A DNA stretch of 64,000 bases from Ectocarpus siliculosus (lineage: Eukaryota; Sar; Phaeophyceae; Ectocarpales; Ectocarpaceae). The notes under the pieces are model-generated. The model was given only the letters and a program-made list of their open reading frames with translations, was not told the origin of the DNA and ran no database searches. How positions within the stretch are numbered: the first letter of the stretch is position 1; every line of letters starts with the position of its first letter. Both the position numbers and the translations under genes were made by a program. Positions 10,069 through 61,668 of the stretch are shown piece by piece. The stretch covers positions 5,383,983 to 5,447,982 of the forward strand of contig FN649741.1 in NCBI GenBank assembly GCA_000310025.1. The letters are read 5' to 3'.

Positions 10069-11051
10069 AGAGAGAGGGAGAGAGAAGTGCCAACCGGAGC
10101 AAGTTTTTCGTGTGTACAGAGCCTGTTGACTCGCAGGCCGGGTTCACTTTGGCCAGCATATGGTTCTTCAGATCTGCACTGAGACGGCCTCGTTTCTTGG
10201 CAAGACCATAACAGCGTGAAACACCCCGCTCCGGCGGGAAGAGGAGACATCGACGCGGAAAAAATGAAAAAAGCTGTGGATGAAGAGATTTCGAAGCCTC
10301 AGCCCTCCACACGCCGTAGGTACAATACGTGGAATAGGACGTTGACTTCCCCTGCGTTGCCGACCTCGTCATGGGCGTGTGAGACGGGCACGAGCAAGTT
10401 GCGCGTTATGGTTGCCTCCACATGATTTAGCGAGATTAGTTTCGGCCAGATTAGTTCGTGTTTCGAGCCCTGTGCTTCTCTGTTTCCAAATCTAGGCGGT
10501 GCGACATCACAGGTGGAGGTCGACCCCCCTTCCCCACAATGTCGGATGCCCTCGCCCCCTTGTGGAGACCTTGACAAGGTCGAACACCTTGGAAAAGACT
10601 TCCAAGGCCTCGAAAGGGGAGAAATCGAGGTAAAATCGAGGCCTTGGTTGTCTTCTCCAAGGTGTTCGACCTTGTCAAGGTCTCCACAAGGGGGCGAGGG
10701 CATCCGACATTGTGGGGAAGGGGTGTGGACGTCCACCTGTGATGCATCCACCAATTGTTTTTTAGCGGTTATGTGCCTTCTAAGTTGTTGTTATTGATGT
10801 CGCTATTGTTTTCTCTTCCGACGGGCATGCTTGGCGTGTGGTCGCGCGCTTAGCTTCAGGAAAGCAAGGGTCCTGAAAGGCACATGTGTACACATCTCCC
10901 ATATCTCACCGCCTGTGGAGCTCGTACCGGCACTGCTGGTAGTGAGGGGGGTCGTGAGGTAGGCCGCTAGCCCCTCGCGAAGCTGCGGGCAGTGGCGTAG
11001 CAGCTGCACAACTGCGTTCACGCAGCACAAATTTGCCCCATTTGGAGCCCC
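3161..11051 (-). CDS. Ubiquitin-specific protease (USP/UBP, peptidase C19), multi-exon
   Basis: Cysteine protease that removes ubiquitin from proteins. The terminal exon, 3363-3161, carries the His box: GVVHHEG then TGHYTAFV, followed by WRRYDDS and ending ILTYTRRSG-stop. The exon at 3606-3525 (RKLSHHVDVPKSIDIAPYT) and the exon at 4055-3963 (LKQCPPTILFYLIRFEH) match the core USP strands just before it. Phases join cleanly across these three exons. The Cys box is in 11051-10910: GANLCCVNAVVQLLRHCP fits the family's GNTCYMNxxLQ pattern, with the first of the two cysteines as nucleophile. Between them lie exon-like segments with good GT/AG borders: 8235-8177, 7332-7237 (beta-rich, like a UBL insert), 6497-6418, 5733-5650, 5102-5013 and 4641-4543. 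Their order is certain, but their membership in this gene is inferred. Exons for the usual QDAHE box were not found. The true 5' end is unknown and may lie as far as 15.1 kb. Confidence 0.72.
10029..10086. repeat. (GA)n microsatellite
   Basis: Near-perfect GA dinucleotide run with one CGC interruption, inside the presumed intron between the Cys-box exon and downstream exons of the minus-strand ubiquitin protease. On the coding strand it is a CT tract, a common composition of introns in this window. Confidence 0.9.
10505..10744. mobile_element. Foldback / MITE-like inverted repeat, 240 bp
   Basis: Two arms of 109 bp (10505-10613 and 10636-10744) are inverted copies differing at only a handful of positions. 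They are separated by a 22-bp spacer. The ends read CATCACAGGTGG inward from both sides. Within each arm GACCTTGACAAGGTC is itself a small palindrome. No ORF of transposase type is present, and I could not find an unambiguous target-site duplication. It lies in an intron of the ubiquitin protease gene. It is best read as a non-autonomous DNA transposon or foldback element. A hairpin small-RNA locus is the alternative. Confidence 0.7.
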
Positions 11052-18100: not shown

Positions 18101-19830
18101 GGCTTCTTATCCATCCGGCCCGCCTTGGCCGAGCCACATATAATATGTACTTGAATTATGTAGCCCTCTCCACAAAACCTACGTACCATGGTACATGTAT
18201 ACACTGCAATGTAGACATGTAGACTGCTCCGATTTCCTAGAAAACCTCGACCTCTTAGATAGGTCCACCTCTCGTCCACCTGATACATTTTAACCGGAAA
18301 GACGCACCTTCTTGTCAACGAGTACTGTACAAAGCCTGTGTTAATAGTTTCTAAAAAAAAAGACGCACCTTCTTGTCGATCCCTGGAGTATTGATCCAGC
18401 GCGATGATGTGTGAGCCGCCATCTCGACAGCAGTAGCGCCGAGACGGCAGCAGCAGCGCACGCCCCGCTCTGTCTGGCGGGAGCAAAACAGCGGTGCCAG
18501 GGAAGAGGGGAGGCATCAGAGCGACCACGTGGTTGGTGTGCAATGAAACCACAATGAACCATACGTCAGGGTGATTCTCTCAAAAAGTGCACAGCGGCAA
18601 GCAAGTGCACCCCACGCCAGTTTGCCCCTCCCTTGTCCGTCGTGCCGTCGTGCCCAGCGGGCACCATGAACGGTTGAGGAAGGCGGATCGGCAGAACAAA
18701 AAAAATGCCTGCGTTTTGACCGCCGGACGCTCGCTGCCACGACACATGCGCGGCTAACCCAGAACAAATAAACGCATCCAGCAGCAGGATTTCTCCCCCA
18801 TTCGCTGCAACGAAAGCTTCCAACACGGCCCCTTCTACTGCTGTGGTATCTTTTCAAGTCTCAAGCAGGCGCAATACATATTTGTAGTCCTTCTTGTTCG
18901 TTGAGATCGAAAATGTTCAAGTTGTTTATCCGAGGCAGCTGCTGGTGGATCCCATCGTGATTGCATCGATCTTTCCTCTTTCGATCCCGCAGACTCTGAG
19001 CTGCGCGTTGGGGGAAGAGGGGGCACGGAGGGTATGCACACATCCGGCGCCAACCAGCCACAGCATCTTGAGGTCGAAGACGACCGACTACGGCAACGAT
19101 GTGCTCCTATCTATGTACAGCAGTATGCAAAGCAAACGGCAAAATTGCAACGATGCCTAAACGCACGACAGAGAGAGAGAGACAGACAGAGAGAGAGAGC
19201 CAGCGACACCATGCTACGGCACAAGAACTCATGAGTTGAGCCCACGCTCGCTTGCTTTTACCCCTCGCTTGAGCACTTTGGGTTAGTGATCAGGCGGCTG
19301 CCGCGATCTTTGGACGCCTGCTGTTGCTGGGTACAACGAGGACACCAATGTAGAGGCATCCGGCGGCGCAAATGTCAGTAGTAAGAGCTGAGAGGCAATC
19401 ATCGAGTCATCGTATTAGCGGGATACGAAACTCCCACCTTTTCTTCAGCGGCACCCAGCTACAACGTGGCCGGGCGTCGCTCGCTCTCTCCTTTCCTTGC
19501 TCCTTCTCCTGGTACGCGTTGAGCACACAAGAAGAACAGGATCCACACAACGACAAAACATGATGGGCAAAACAAGGTGATCTGTCTCTCTGCTATGCAC
19601 CAACGCCCGGCGGGCTTCAGAGAGCATGTGCTGGTCGGGAGTTCGGATGGCATGTTTGGTACGAGAACGAAACGTCTTTTTTTTTTCCTCTTTCTCGACG
19701 ACGACGTGCCGTTATTCGTTTTTATATCAGCACGATCCCATCTACTATGTTGTAGTCTATGTACAGACCGTACCCAACTATTGTACAAGGGTCCAGTTTG
19801 AATTAGCAACGGACCCATACATAGCGTTTT
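15110..19830. other. No confident gene
   Basis: Scattered minus-strand segments look mildly coding. One is about 18826-18566 (Ala/Gly/Leu-rich, ending at a stop). Another is about 16990-16890, with a Ser/Glu-rich frame ending at a GTGAGA donor. None has a recognisable motif or a phase-consistent neighbour. A (GA)/(GACA) microsatellite lies at about 19167-19200. I would treat the whole stretch as intergenic or unknown. Confidence 0.35.
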
Positions 19831-19910
19831 TGTTAAGATGTACAGCATATCCACTATGCTACAAGTCAGCGCTGACTTGTAGCATAGTGGATATGCTGTA
19901 CATCTTAACA
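19831..19910 (-). repeat. 3' terminal repeat of gag-only element (perfect 80-bp palindrome)
   Basis: Two 40-nt halves are exact reverse complements meeting at 19870/19871 with no loop. The inverted symmetry extends three further bases on each side, to 19828-19913. It starts TGTTAAGATG and ends CATCTTAACA, giving the TG...CA ends of an LTR. Confidence 0.92.
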
Positions 19911-21020
19911 AAAGCACAACCGGGGTCCTTCGGCCTGTTAGAGCTGTTGGACCTCGGTAAACCCCAGGGTTGTAATCCCTGTAACCAGCGCTGCCCCCAT
20001 GCGGTTCATCGACTTACAGGGCGGGAATATGTGCCTTCACTTGGACGACTGGAATGTATACCGTCTTTCAGGCCTATCCCAGACGTTTCCAGAAAAAAGG
20101 CGTCACAAGTGGTCACAGTGGTCCCAGAGGGATTCGAACCCCGGTTGTACTTTTGCTTTTGGCACTCAGCATCGCTGTGTGTCTTGGTGTTGTGGTAGGA
20201 GCACCACTTGGGCTGTGCACTCCCACCACTTCCTCGCTTGTTGGCTCCCTTCTTCTTGCCCTGCTTAGGACGGCTCTTTTGGACCTGTTGGGGACAATCG
20301 CGCTGGAAGTGTCCGTACGCCTTGCATCGGCGGCACTGGTCGGTGTCGGACGCGACCGCCATCGCAGCCCCCCGGCCCGAGACCACGGGGCCCGACGCGT
20401 TGCGCGACTGCTGATCCACAAAAAAGCGGTTAGCCGTCGCCTGGAGACTGTCTACTGAAGTAAAATTGTCGCGGTAGTGCATCTCCCTGATGAACTTGAA
20501 CTCCGGGGCCTTGGTCAGGCCTGAGAGCATGATGTCCAGGTAGACTGGGTCCGAAACTTCCTCCCCCAGCACCTTAAGGCGAAGCTTGAGATCCCACCCC
20601 TTTGTGAAGAAGTCAATGGGGTCACCGCCCGCAAGGTGTCGCAGGTTGAACAGCTCGTTGTGACACGCACGCCGAGCTTCCTGGGTTTGAGCATCGAAAA
20701 GCTCGTTGAGGGCTCTCCAGGCCGCCGTCCCATCCCCCATGTCACTATCCGCGGGGAGTGCGGACGGTGAGCTGCGCAGACCCGGAGGTCACGAAGAAGA
20801 GGAGGGAGAACAGGCGACCGTTGGCCTTGTCCCACGCGCCCACATCCTGCGCGTTCGCCGCGGTTGCCGAAGGACGCGCGTTTCCGTTGAAGACGGGGAG
20901 AAGCTCCGGCGCGTGGAGGATCATTGCTTGTCGAAGTTTGATCTTCCACTCGCGAAAACCCGAATGTCCCGCGCATTTCCCGATGGAGTCCAGCATGCGG
21001 TTGAGCCCGGAGCTCACTCT

Positions 21021-21100
21021 TGTCGAGACGTACAGCATATTCACTATGCTACAAGTCAGCGCTGACTTGTAGCATAGTGGATATGCTGTACATCTTAACA
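21021..21100 (-). repeat. 5' terminal repeat of gag-only element (near-perfect palindrome)
   Basis: Same 80-bp repeat as at 19831-19910, in direct orientation. It differs at four positions, all transitions and all in the half next to the gag region. The outer half is identical, so the palindrome is only slightly imperfect. Confidence 0.92.
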
Positions 21101-21105
21101 GTTTT

Positions 21106-22507: not shown

Positions 22508-23944
22508 ATGGCTGTGGACCTCCTTGCCGCATCACGCCGGCCGTTGGAACGACTTTTGCACGAGTGCTCTTTTTCTCAATGGGAGAATATCGCCTTGTTC
22601 CTCGACGAAGGCGCGACGGAGGCGGTGAGGTGGGCAGGGGGCCTGGGCTTCGTGCTGGAGGAGCTTGGAATCTCTCATATCCTGGACTTGCAGGTGGGTT
22701 TCGGTTGTTGTTGCTGTTGGTCGTTCGTGATCCGTGCATCTCTTTGATGTTCTCGAAATACGGAGAGTTCCCAACAGTCTACTCTTGTAGTCTATGTATC
22801 TAGACTTGGTGCCCTGGACAGCAGTACAGCAGTCTATCGTACGTGTCTACCGGTATGCATGCAGCCGTCGTAAATATGCACAGCTGAGATGAGCAAGGGC
22901 AGGGTCTACAGCATCCTGCAGTCTATTGTGTGGTGTACTCCTGTGCTGCTGATGTTCCACCCGCCTGTGATCGACGCGTGCGTTCAGCTGGTACTGTAGA
23001 TGGAAAGACGCTTCGTGCGGAACGATACAGCGGCTGTTCCACATGTAGGCTGTCAGGTGGATATGCTGGTACTACTGCTGTACATGAGTACTGCAGTATG
23101 TAGTATTCTACTGCTGTAAACTGCTGCTGTTTAGTGCACAGTATTGCTGTAAAACACTTTCAGGAAATTGGGACTCGTACAGCAGTATTGAGGAAGAGCT
23201 GGCTGGATGTTTGGATCCATGTGTTGCGAGTGTTGATTACCGTATATGACACAAGATAACACACCCCCTGGACCGATTTTCAAAGCTCGATTACTCCACG
23301 ACGAAGAGGATGCATAAATGAAACAATACGTTTTCGAACAGCTCTCGACGAGACGGTTCCAACGCCGCCGTTTTCGGCGCTGTGACTCTTCCTGCTGTTG
23401 AGAAATCGAGCTTTGAAAATCGGCCAAGGGGGGATGTTATCTTGTGTCATATACGGTAGCTCAGCAGTATCTAGGCTTTGACATCACTACACCTCAGTTC
23501 CAGAGACCTGAGCGTGTCAAGGCGCATGTCGCTACACTGCACAACGTCCTCAACTGGCGAAGTATCTTAGGCCAGGAATCCGCAAGCCTATTTGAGCGGT
23601 TTTCGATTCGGCCCCCAATTATGGTATGCGACTTTCGTCTTGGATTTATCTTACACAACCGATTTACCCGTGTGGTCGTGATCCCCGTACAGAGAGGGAG
23701 ACGAGCGTGGTATTTGTTCGCCTTTGGAAGAGAGGATTGTCAGATCAGGAAGCCTAACACATTTCACCCAAACATGTGCCGTGTCATCAAAGGCATTTGC
23801 GCCAGGCAGGAGCCCGCCTGCAGTCCCAGAGTCTGAAGGGCTAACCCGGGGCATCTTTCTGGTGACGAACTTTGTTTGGGACGTGGAAGGGGCAGTGCTT
23901 CACGCGGCCTGCACCTACGGACTCACAGAGGTAAGCTCGACACC

Positions 23945-48403: not shown

Positions 48404-50773
48404 GATGATGTCGGTGTCGAGGTGTTGAAGTGCTGGAGCTGGTTTGCTTGGTTGGTTTGTGTTGTGATGTGTGTGTGCGTGGAGGAGGACCTGTCTGTGT
48501 GTGTGCGGGAGATATTTGTAGGAGGAAGCTGCGGGAGAAAGGAGGATTCCGCGGGATATAAAAATCAAATTCCTCCGCGGAGGTTTCGCCGCAATTGTTC
48601 GGGTTCTTATTGTGTCGAGACGGAACGTGATGAGGCTTAGTCTACGAATAGTCTACCCCACCGGCACCGGCGGTGGTGGGACGAATTCGGCGGGGATGAT
48701 CAGCCTTATTCGCCCCACGGCTGTCTCGCCCTACAAGAAGAAGAATCGAATCGACACGGCGACATATATAATATGAAAGTTGAAGCGTTTGGCGGCTATC
48801 GTGGGACTCATCAATCGGTGCTGCCGCGGCCGGTGGGAAATGACGGATCCACCCGATAAACTGCTGGGGTAGATGGCCTAAACTGAAAGTTATGCCTACG
48901 CGGTGATCTCCTACTTCTGTTACTACAGCGTTGGGTCCCGTTGGTTGTTGAAGGAGCTCGTCTGCAAGAATTTTTGAATGAAGAAGGCAGAGAGTTTCGG
49001 TATCCCGTGAATGTACAGCAGGATTCTCCAAAAACCTGTAGGAAAACTACATATTGTAAGTACAAACACAGAAAGACCGTTCGAGATATAACCACAGTCG
49101 AAGGGGATGTGTAAAATATGTTGGCGGCGTGGCACTACCACCGCGCAGTGACGTTCGTTCTAAACCATGCATGCATATAGTCTAGTCCTCAGAAATGATG
49201 AGAGACGTTCTACCACGACACCAACCACGACACCAACCATGACACCAACCACGCGCACCATACATCAACTGGCTGACGATCCGCCACAGAACAACGAGTT
49301 TTTTAAGGAGTGGTATGATACAAAACAAACGCGCTTGGCCAGCAAAAAGGGCAAAGTTAAAGGAGTCACTTGAACGCAGTACAAACACTAGCCGGCAGCT
49401 ACAGAAAATAGTTGCGGCAAATGACAGGAAAGCGTCTAGCGATAAGGTCAGCAGCAGAGCAAAGCAAAATTGACTCTGGAACTCGAAAACAAACCCGGTT
49501 CTATTCTCCACAGACAGCCAGCCGTGAATCTCGCACCGCATAACAAGTCTTCAATGGACTATATTATAAAGCTTATTACTGGTGGTCGGGCGGCGGGTGG
49601 AGGGTTTGCTTGCGGCGTGTGTGGTTTGGGGCAAACCGTATCTCGATGTACTGTACTGTAGTACGGTTCGGTGCACCGGGCCATGGGGGTGGGAGGAAAA
49701 GGGCTTCAGAACGTGTAACGTCCCGACCAACGACGAAAACATCACTTCCCGTACCCGTGAAATCAGTGTACCTCTCTCTATTGGAGGGGTGGGTGCGCGA
49801 TGCCAGGTGCAAACCCTCCAACAAGGAGCTGGGCGCCAGAACTATCGCCAAAGCCTTACAAATTTTTCGATACTTCCGTCATGCAGACAGATGGTGCTGT
49901 CTCTTGTAAAAGTAAGTCTGGATTGATTGGCCATGGACGAGGCTTACAAACCCGCCGGGAAAAAAAAATCGGGTGAATCGTGGTGTGAAGCCAATACATG
50001 TTCCCGGTGCCGATACGTCTTGTCGGCAACGCACCTCGTATTCACGTCATGCACAGTTCCCAGGTGGGGTCAAGCTGACACTTTTGGACAGACCAGTCTA
50101 AAAATGCAGTCATGCAAGACGATGGGTCATGCAATGACCGCTTGGTCGCTAAGGCCACGGGGGTCGCCAGCTGCAAAGGAAGCACCCTGCCCACCACCAT
50201 GATACTTGATTCAAGGTAGGGCTCAAAAAGAGTGCAAGTCGAACGACACAGATTGTGTCTGTTCCTCACTCGCGAAGACGAGTTCAACAGAGAGAAAGGC
50301 ATGAACACTGCAAAGCCGTTCTATTGTTGGTACCGTTCAAGTCCTTGAACGACACAGAATGTGTGCATTCCTCACGGAAAGAATTCAAGAGAAGGGGGCA
50401 CAAATGAACACTCAATTCTACCGTCCAAGCCTTACACACCACCTACTCGCTGACAACTCAATCTTGGCCTGTAACATGAGATGAAGTCTGCGCCAGACGC
50501 CGATGATCATCGGTCCATTCATGACTGGAAGAAAATAGCACAAGAAAAAAACACGAAGGACACACACCCTACACACAGGAACCCCTGAAGAAGTTACCAC
50601 GTCGACCACCCAACTGCTATGCCTTTGGAAACCTTCCTGCCGGTTGTCTACAACAACTTCCGCCTACCGCTATTATAGTACAATTTCTGCGTACCTACAG
50701 TACAGAATTTTCCGTGGTAGCACGCTAGCTCAACACGCGTGCAAGGCAACTACCATTGAGCAATCTCTGTCAT

Positions 50774-53701: not shown

Positions 53702-53908
53702 GATGATGTCAGTGTTGAGGTGTTGAATCGCTGGAGCTGGTTTGCTTGGTAGGTTTGTGTTGTGATGTGTGTGCTGTGGAGGAGGACCTGTGCGTCTGTC
53801 GCAAAGCGGGAGATAGGAGGATTCAGCGGGAGATACGTTCGAGCCAAATTCCGAGGTTCCGCCGCTATTTGACGGAACATAGGCAAAATATTACCCCACC
53901 GGCGGCGG

Positions 53909-54208
53909 TGTTAGGATGATCCGAACTGGGGGTAGCTTGTCGCAAGACGTGTGTTGAATAGGGTGTCGGCAACTCGGCGAACTCGCGCCAAGGAGGAAAG
54001 ATGTGCTGGGCTTGTTGTATAGACTTCTTCTTCACATGAAAAACATGGACTCACATGAACACATGAACGAACTGCACGCACACGCGCACGCACCATCAGT
54101 ACGGGGGCGACGCAGTATACAACAGGGGTACCTTGCACACCCTGGAAATACATTCCACGTACCACACAATCCTACAACCACTTGGCATTGCTACAAGTAT
54201 ATCTATCA
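53909..54208 (-). repeat. Copia 3' LTR
   Basis: 300 bp. On the minus strand it begins TGATAGATATAC and ends CATCCTAACA. Identical by eye to the 5' LTR. It faces the start of GST copy B in the same transcriptional direction. Confidence 0.95.
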
Positions 54209-61295: not shown

Positions 61296-61368
61296 GATCT
61301 ACTTCTCTAGCCGAACCCTTTTATAGCTAACCTCACCTCGGGATCCCGTGTGATATCACACGCTAGCG

Positions 61369-61668
61369 TGTTAGGATGATCCGAACTGGGGGTAGCTTGT
61401 CGCAAGACGTGTGTTGAATAGGGTGTCGGCAACTCGGCGAACTCGCGCCAAGGAGGAAAGATGTGCTGGGCTTGTTGTATAGACTTCTTCTTCACATGAA
61501 AAACATGGACTCACATGAACACATGAACGAACTGCACGCACACGCGCACGCACCATCAGTACGGGGGCGACGCAGTATACAACAGGGGTACCTTGCACAC
61601 CCTGGAAATACATTCCACGTACCACACAATCCTACAACCACTTGGCATTGCTACAAGTATATCTATCA
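61369..61668 (-). repeat. Copia 5' LTR
   Basis: 300 bp, same sequence as the 3' LTR. The leader just inside it holds a small palindrome (GTGTGATATCACAC, 61348-61361) and leads to the gag start at 61295. No standard initiator-tRNA primer site is obvious to me. Confidence 0.95.

Follow-up and report, generated by a model that had tools for sequence, protein, structure and literature searches.

Short non-autonomous elements with palindromic terminal repeats in Ectocarpus siliculosus, and a copy that carries a captured Copia gag fragment

The Pol III-promoter TRIMs, named TRIMp3 and represented by Helenus, Ajax and Cassandra, are short non-autonomous elements (Helenus measures 311-1263 bp) in which a tRNA- or 5S-type Pol III promoter lies within the terminal repeats, as described in the main text of PMC10886601. 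According to the same text, Helenus makes 5-bp duplications in fungi and plants and 4-bp duplications in animals, and fungal Helenus has Copia as its likely helper; a PBS of the anticodon-loop type is also discussed there. Terminal repeats that are themselves palindromic, and that also occur singly, are described for the TIRs of the Tc1/mariner elements Sardine and Thon of Paramecium (in the parts of PMC3464196 considered here). For Ectocarpus, the main text of PMC12477816 reports gag-only Copia families and 51 unclassified DNA families.

The element described here lies at positions 19831-21100 of a 64,000-nucleotide stretch of Ectocarpus siliculosus DNA (contig FN649741.1), which as a whole is called the window. 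It belongs to a family of short non-autonomous elements with palindromic terminal repeats, and it carries a captured fragment of a Copia gag. The unusual part is the palindrome-ended family, not the gag. Most genomes do not maintain loop-free palindromes of 74-80 bp stably, and it is unusual for a transposon to end in them; at least two families have spread with them here, and some copies are still perfect. The elements form a natural setting in which to ask whether a eukaryotic retroelement can use hairpins at its ends as primers of DNA synthesis, and how palindromes are kept. Little transposon work has been done in brown algae, and the family may be a link there between Copia, short mobile elements and promoters of tRNA type. 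On the practical side, palindromic ends may upset genome assembly and could pass for microRNA precursors.

The window element and its gag passenger

The left terminal repeat (19831-19910) is a perfect loop-free palindrome of 80 bp with TG...CA termini, built of two head-to-head 40-nt arms that lengthen to 43 nt when the flanking TTTT/AAAA is included; as RNA it is predicted to fold at -65.8 kcal/mol (z = -17). The right terminal repeat (21021-21100) is an 80-bp palindrome, likewise with TG...CA termini, that has four mismatched pairs, and all of its changes fall in the inner arm. Over 81 aligned nt the left and right repeats agree at 95%, and a 20-nt end searched with up to three mismatches is found four times in the window against none expected, always within these two repeats. 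GTTTT stands on both sides of the 1270-bp unit, at 19826-19830 and at 21101-21105. An earlier note, made from the sequence alone, had described both the palindromic repeats and the perfect GTTTT duplication, and re-analysis recovered them with the same coordinates and mismatches.

The same note had taken the inside of the element for a gag only, with a CCHC knuckle. The knuckle holds up (20288-20338, minus strand; Pfam zf-CCHC, 4.6e-5, over the cut-off) and the rest of that description does not, as positions 19911-20155 (minus strand) are the conserved interior of the repeated family, with ends that form an inverted repeat of ~15 bp (AAAGNACAACCGGGG). The gag itself covers 860 bp from 20156 to 21015 (minus strand), and its reading frame is split into two ORFs; the Copia gag profile matches weakly, at 0.0054, below its cut-off. 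The genome searched (189 Mb in 492 contigs) holds 13 matches to the gag, the window included, and none of the 12 others lies at any listed palindrome place (at least 43 stretches). Reading covered six gag loci (L051-L056) and left out five short matches of 65-87 nt (C110, C18, C31, C15, C49). The palindrome is absent from all six, window position 21015, close to the beginning of the Copia gag, is where each of their matches (92-97% identity) ends, and L052-L056 share with L051 one Copia leader upstream of the gag. At L051 the leader and gag belong with a Copia pol (RVT_2, 2.7e-61), and the LTR of this Copia is free of the palindrome, for which the earlier note had proposed a search in a larger Copia family; this LTR ends in ...ACAATATCCA, followed by TAATAGGTTATGAGCC, which we take to resemble the anticodon-loop type of PBS. 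Because the gag loci read have the same gag start and a Copia leader and lack the palindrome, the gag is a frame-broken passenger. It is foreign to the palindrome-ended family and a one-off in the window copy. Within the end of the Copia gag ORF of the C144 copy there is also a 155-bp tandem duplication of 94% identity (L051:1827-2136).

The gag piece is flanked by ACTTTTG on its left (20149-20155) and by ACTCTTG on its right (21016-21022, overlapping the start of the right repeat), where intact elements have a single ACTTTTG; CTTTTG is common to Copia. The right flank looks like a mutated second ACTTTTG. With two such copies flanking it and CTTTTG shared with Copia, the insert resembles a capture joined through microhomology at the inner border of the right palindrome, and both a capture before and a capture after the landing of the window element are compatible with this arrangement.

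The window contains several other repeats. Two 300-bp repeats that are 100% identical and 7460 bp apart (53908-54207 and 61368-61667) may be the two LTRs of an LTR retrotransposon of young age. Two further hairpin elements, at 10505-10744 (109-bp arms, 94%) and 23238-23458 (62-bp arms, 90%), are visually unrelated to the palindrome family. Several blocks located between ~42.6 and 48.5 kb of the window recur at 49.5-53.8 kb with 84-97% identity and a spacing of ~5.3-6.9 kb, which suggests a duplication of several kb. A common repeat around GTCTTTCTGTGTGTG is seen at window 49062-49109, L024:4736-4837, L029:1783-1826 and L054:1-98, where it occupies the expected start position of a Copia LTR.

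Two repeated families with palindromic ends

The earlier note had proposed that the genome be searched with the palindrome and the interior separately, and these searches reveal a repeated palindrome-ended family with TG...CA ends and 5-bp duplications. The palindrome has at least 86 matches, equal to at least 43 stretches counting both strands, from the 40 of 80 candidates scored (two of the stretches, on C111, are pieces of a single palindrome), and the interior query (19911-20155) has 33, the window's own included. The short elements read at these loci consist of a palindrome, AAAGTACAACCGGGGTCCTTCAGCC..., an interior of up to ~235 bp, ...GGGATTCGAACCCCGGTTGTACTTT and a second palindrome, with a total length of up to ~390 bp. 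Their interior ends form an inverted repeat of ~15 bp that extends the palindromes inward, and some copies, such as L029 and L024, have internal deletions with both outer ends kept.

Target-site duplications were scored in 15 two-ended units, picked for having two ends that can be placed visually; L065 was left out, as its left end was not located, and the scoring did not extend to nested or complex copies such as L031, L038 and L068. Exact 5-bp duplications surround 9 of 14 units (the window, L017, L023, L024, L027, L029, L044, L058, L059), four match at four of five bases (L026, L049, L060, L062) and one, L061, in which the right repeat is without its outer arm, has none. Because of these duplications the outer ends of two-ended copies are taken as true insertion boundaries. 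For solo palindromes as insertion units the boundaries are less clear: among 11 scored, one duplication is exact, three match at four of five bases and seven have two matching bases or fewer. Eleven one-ended copies were inspected visually (L018, L019, L020, L022, L028, L030, L032, L034, L040, L046, L048), with exact 5-bp duplications at L019 and L046, four of five bases at L032 and L022, and none in the remaining seven; those with duplications would suit, weakly, the insertion of incomplete cDNA. One unrelated segment with a near-perfect hairpin (CCACCGGCCGTCTTGCTCATGAGCAAGACGACCGGTGG) is seen within the chimeric family copy L068, at 526-563.

Beside a family 1 palindrome, at L018:4032-4323, stands a different element of the same plan, and a search with this second family gives at least 134 matches from the 40 of 122 candidates scored. 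The L018 copy has interior ends that pair, apart from some mismatches, as an inverted repeat of ~41 bp. The match coordinates led to an inferred end, a 74-bp perfect palindrome TGTTAGAAAGG...GTCAGC|GCTGAC...CCTTTCTAACA, before any such copy had been read; it was then found at 100% identity and full length at a minimum of three loci (C456 and twice on C3), again from 40 of 80 candidates scored. The two families have in common their TGTTA ends, an AGTCAGC|GCTGACT centre and TAACAAAA at the junction. Across the genome there are 318 copies of the 14-bp centre AGTCAGCGCTGACT, against none in the reversed control; a large superfamily built on it was considered and dropped, as only 16 of these sites have the extended exact centre of family 1 and 11 that of family 2. 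Of the AGTCAGCGCTGACT sites outside these two groups, two were looked at: L069 is a decayed palindrome whose left arm has TAGTCTAATGG, and L029:1722 adjoins an unrelated repeat.

The arms of the palindromes tend to change together. In 44 palindromes the same change is present in both arms at 13 positions, different changes are present at 4, and 165 changes are one-sided, and when arms were shuffled among copies the mean was 3.0 symmetric changes, with a maximum of 11 in 2000 shuffles; subfamily structure may account for some of the excess, because the shuffling ignores shared descent. Hairpin-based correction or copying is a likely cause of this joint change. Two larger palindromes, with arms of 171 nt at L016 (3776-4117) and ~275 nt at L021 (3764-4313), resemble fold-back duplications centred on a family palindrome. 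They directly abut runs of N (L016:2485-3775 and L021:436-3763), and in the genome the L021 flank is present only at L021 and in its own inverted arm, so these two were rejected as real duplications and treated as probable assembly artefacts. A 100-base N run also lies near a palindrome at L058.

Searched against Rfam, the window element and five loci gave microRNA-hairpin models and one weak tmRNA match only, all below gathering scores. A viral origin was dropped, as two palindrome patterns had no match in viral contigs, a set possibly without records near this genome. As a separate observation, the EsV_1_7_cys domain has at least 150 matches in the 189-Mb genome (150 of 880 candidates scored) and none in 14 control genomes; its proliferation in brown algae is noted in the main text of PMC12477816, and the matches fit a brown-algal genome.

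Promoter-like motifs, Copia fusions and competing mechanisms

Read in the gag direction, the palindrome arm carries TAGCATAGTGG, a perfect A box by the consensus TRGYNNARNGG, and the interior ends in GGTTCGAATCC, a perfect B box, so that the A box lies inside the terminal repeat and the B box outside it. In the window these motifs are found at 19880-19890 (plus strand, within the left palindrome's inward-facing arm) and 20130-20140 (minus strand); there the gag stands between the A and B boxes, and a single change is present in the right-hand A box. Of 17 right ends, 9 have a perfect B box. The A and B boxes are both perfect at a distance of 44 nt, which is the spacing in tRNA genes, in one of the 17 (L061); one mismatch over both boxes is seen at L060 (44 nt) and at L032 and L026 (45 nt), two in the B box at L017, and in most other right ends the adjoining palindrome is damaged or missing. 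A perfect A/B pair 30-60 nt apart arose in none of 20,000 mononucleotide shuffles of the 325-bp palindrome-plus-interior segment. The A-box position is occupied in family 2 by TAGTTTAATGG or TAGTCTAATGG. The palindrome may be viewed as two head-to-head promoter modules that resemble the 5′ half of a tRNA. Three results speak against a true tRNA origin of this promoter half: Rfam gave no tRNA match for the window element and five loci, a 75-nt tRNA-like composite is no more stable when folded than its shuffles (z 0.57), and the tRNA-like module has no acceptor stem.

The terminal repeats had been called LTRs in the earlier note, a status that is unproven, as both families continue inward as inverted repeats and have neither PBS nor PPT by eye. 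Visual reading beside the repeats of families 1 and 2 found no PBS of the TGG... type or of L051's GGTTATGAGCC type and no polypurine tract; the sequence at the PPT position in family 1 is CCGGTTGTACTTT or its inverse. Terminal repeats that are palindromic are both direct and inverted repeats, and the similarity of left and right palindromes does not decide between LTR and TIR: of 12 elements compared, the inverted alignment is the better one in 6 and the direct alignment in 2, and in 4 they are equal. Terminal inverted repeats are present in the form of the palindrome plus the inner ~15 bp (family 1) or ~41 bp (family 2). No autonomous relative was recognised among 99 places of the 18-nt end (up to two mismatches; 4 in the reversed control), and the sole pair 1.5-20 kb apart is a same-strand pair on C14, 1.8 kb apart and unread.

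Fusions with Copia sequence occur at two further loci. At L030 a Copia-type LTR end and PBS (TAATAGGTTATGAGCCTC) are joined straight to the family interior, with likeness to L051 over 34 nt (88%) and 38 nt (84%) plus the PBS, and no 3′ LTR is seen at this locus. At L068 the interior is joined to a Copia-type LTR end with its PBS and leader (276 nt, 75% to L051), and the interiors fused at the two loci have opposite orientations. A search for Copia with a TTAACA-ending LTR before an L051-type PBS gave three matches, none of them with TTAACA.

The reading that we tentatively prefer, at somewhat short of an even chance, combines an RNA stage and a Pol III-type promoter with Copia-type reverse transcriptase and integrase acting in trans, the gag being a capture. 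The inward-facing arm and the interior end, with the A box in the palindrome and the B box inside at 44 nt, would form the promoter, and the element RNA would be copied and inserted by the enzymes of a Copia-type LTR retrotransposon, a machinery suggested by the TG...CA ends and 5-bp duplications, as proposed for Cassandra, Helenus and Ajax. The gag may have entered by template switching between two RNAs in one particle or, alternatively, as Copia cDNA captured at a palindrome-induced break, in either case at the 6-nt microhomology. Such an RNA stage is supported by the repetition of the palindrome (at least 86 matches), the exact or near-exact duplications in 13 of 14 units, the boxes and their absence as a pair from all shuffles, a gag that reads in the B-box direction and is joined at CTTTTG, the LTR-PBS fusions of L030 and L068, the truncated one-ended copies with exact duplications (L019 and L046), the second family of the same plan, and the failure to recognise an autonomous DNA element at the 99 places. 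It is weakened by the missing PBS and purine tract in both families, by the inverted-repeat form of the interior ends, not required in LTR elements, and by a TTTT run at the interior end that could stop Pol III. Moreover, both boxes are perfect at 44 nt in only one of 17 right ends and are separated by the gag in the window, the tRNA searches and the search for a TTAACA-ending Copia came back empty, the left/right alignments do not favour LTRs, exact duplications are limited to 2 of 11 one-ended copies, and the L030 Copia piece comprises only two short matches and a PBS, with its interior oriented opposite to that of L068. It is also quite possible that the elements are derivatives of a DNA transposon (MITE or foldback) whose ~95-115 bp TIRs have a palindromic outer part and which a 5-bp-duplicating DDE transposase, for example of Ginger2-like type, would move; the gag would then have been captured later at a palindrome break, and the tRNA-type boxes would be old relics. 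Inverted repeats beyond the palindrome in both families, the lack of PBS and PPT, the 6 to 2 majority of inverted over direct alignments among 12 (with 4 ties) and the internally deleted copies with both outer ends (L029, L024) agree with a DNA transposon, as do the palindromic and solo TIRs of Sardine and Thon (PMC3464196, in part) and the 4-5 bp duplications of Ginger2 (PMC10045372, in part). However, no autonomous element with these ends was found at the 99 places of the 18-nt end, MITEs are not expected to retain A and B boxes, and the Copia fusions would be a coincidence. The RNA stage with Copia-type help is slightly favoured over the palindromic-TIR MITE, and the two are close.

Three other explanations are less probable. 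It is unlikely that the palindromic ends are self-priming hairpins of a retroelement that replicates by hairpin transfer: the 3′ palindrome of the element RNA would fold back and prime the first strand, the palindrome at the cDNA end would prime the second, and an LTR-retrotransposon integrase would insert the product, with the hairpin ends of parvovirus DNA as an analogy. Self-priming of this kind would replace PBS and PPT and so explain their absence, and it would also explain the excess of joint arm changes (13 against a mean of 3.0). The earlier note had favoured a gag-only retroelement of the TR-GAG kind, that is a gag-bearing LTR family with palindromic LTRs, and TG...CA ends, a 5-bp duplication and a gag inside fit this, as do the gag-only Copia families reported in Ectocarpus (main text of PMC12477816); it is nevertheless highly improbable, being contradicted in this genome, where copies sharing both LTRs and gag are lacking and the window is the sole place that joins gag and palindrome. 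Scarcely credible is the origin from two independent palindromic insertions flanking a gag relic, which the earlier note had tied to palindromes that stand without the gag and without 5-bp duplications. Single palindromes do exist (11 solo copies scored, with the one exact and three near-exact duplications given above), and palindromes without the gag are found, but they have 5-bp duplications, which makes this origin unlikely; neither window palindrome alone is surrounded by a duplication, only the outer flanks match, and the standard interior adjoins the left palindrome as in other two-ended copies.

Comparison with known systems

Ginger2-type elements have TG-type ends. Together with related integrase-like DNA transposons they make duplications of 4-5 bp, as the elements here do (PMC10045372, in the parts considered); they differ from the present families, for which neither a transposase nor an autonomous relative was found at the 99 places of the 18-nt end. 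Sardine and Thon offer the closest likeness in their ends, the TIRs being palindromic and occurring solo. Sardine is ~6.7 kb long, however, genes for a transposase and a tyrosine recombinase are present in both elements, and their TIRs measure 425 and ~700 bp (PMC3464196, likewise in part); Tc1/mariner elements normally duplicate a 2-bp TA, against 5 bp here (PMC10045372).

The TR-GAG type and the gag-only Copia families of Ectocarpus resemble the window element in having gag without pol (PMC12477816), whereas here the gag is a one-off passenger and palindromic ends are absent from those Copia loci of this gag that were read. The main texts of PMC12477816 and PMC10886601 contain no occurrence of 'palindrom', and palindrome-ended elements may already stand unnamed in the supplements of PMC12477816 or in Repbase. 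Among the open-licence papers listed, none is, judged from titles and abstract openings, about LTR or TRIM elements with palindromic ends; where two tool papers speak of a 'palindromic LTR', the passages concerned mean the TG..CA motif (PMC2253517, PMC6547461).

The TRIMp3 elements are alike in being short and non-autonomous, in the 5-bp duplications of fungal and plant Helenus and in the likely help of Copia for fungal Helenus. Helenus and Ajax have both PBS and PPT (main text of PMC10886601), which by eye are absent here. The terminal repeat of the present elements is palindromic, with the A box in the repeat and the B box in the interior, whereas TRIMp3 elements as described in that text carry their Pol III promoter within the terminal repeats.
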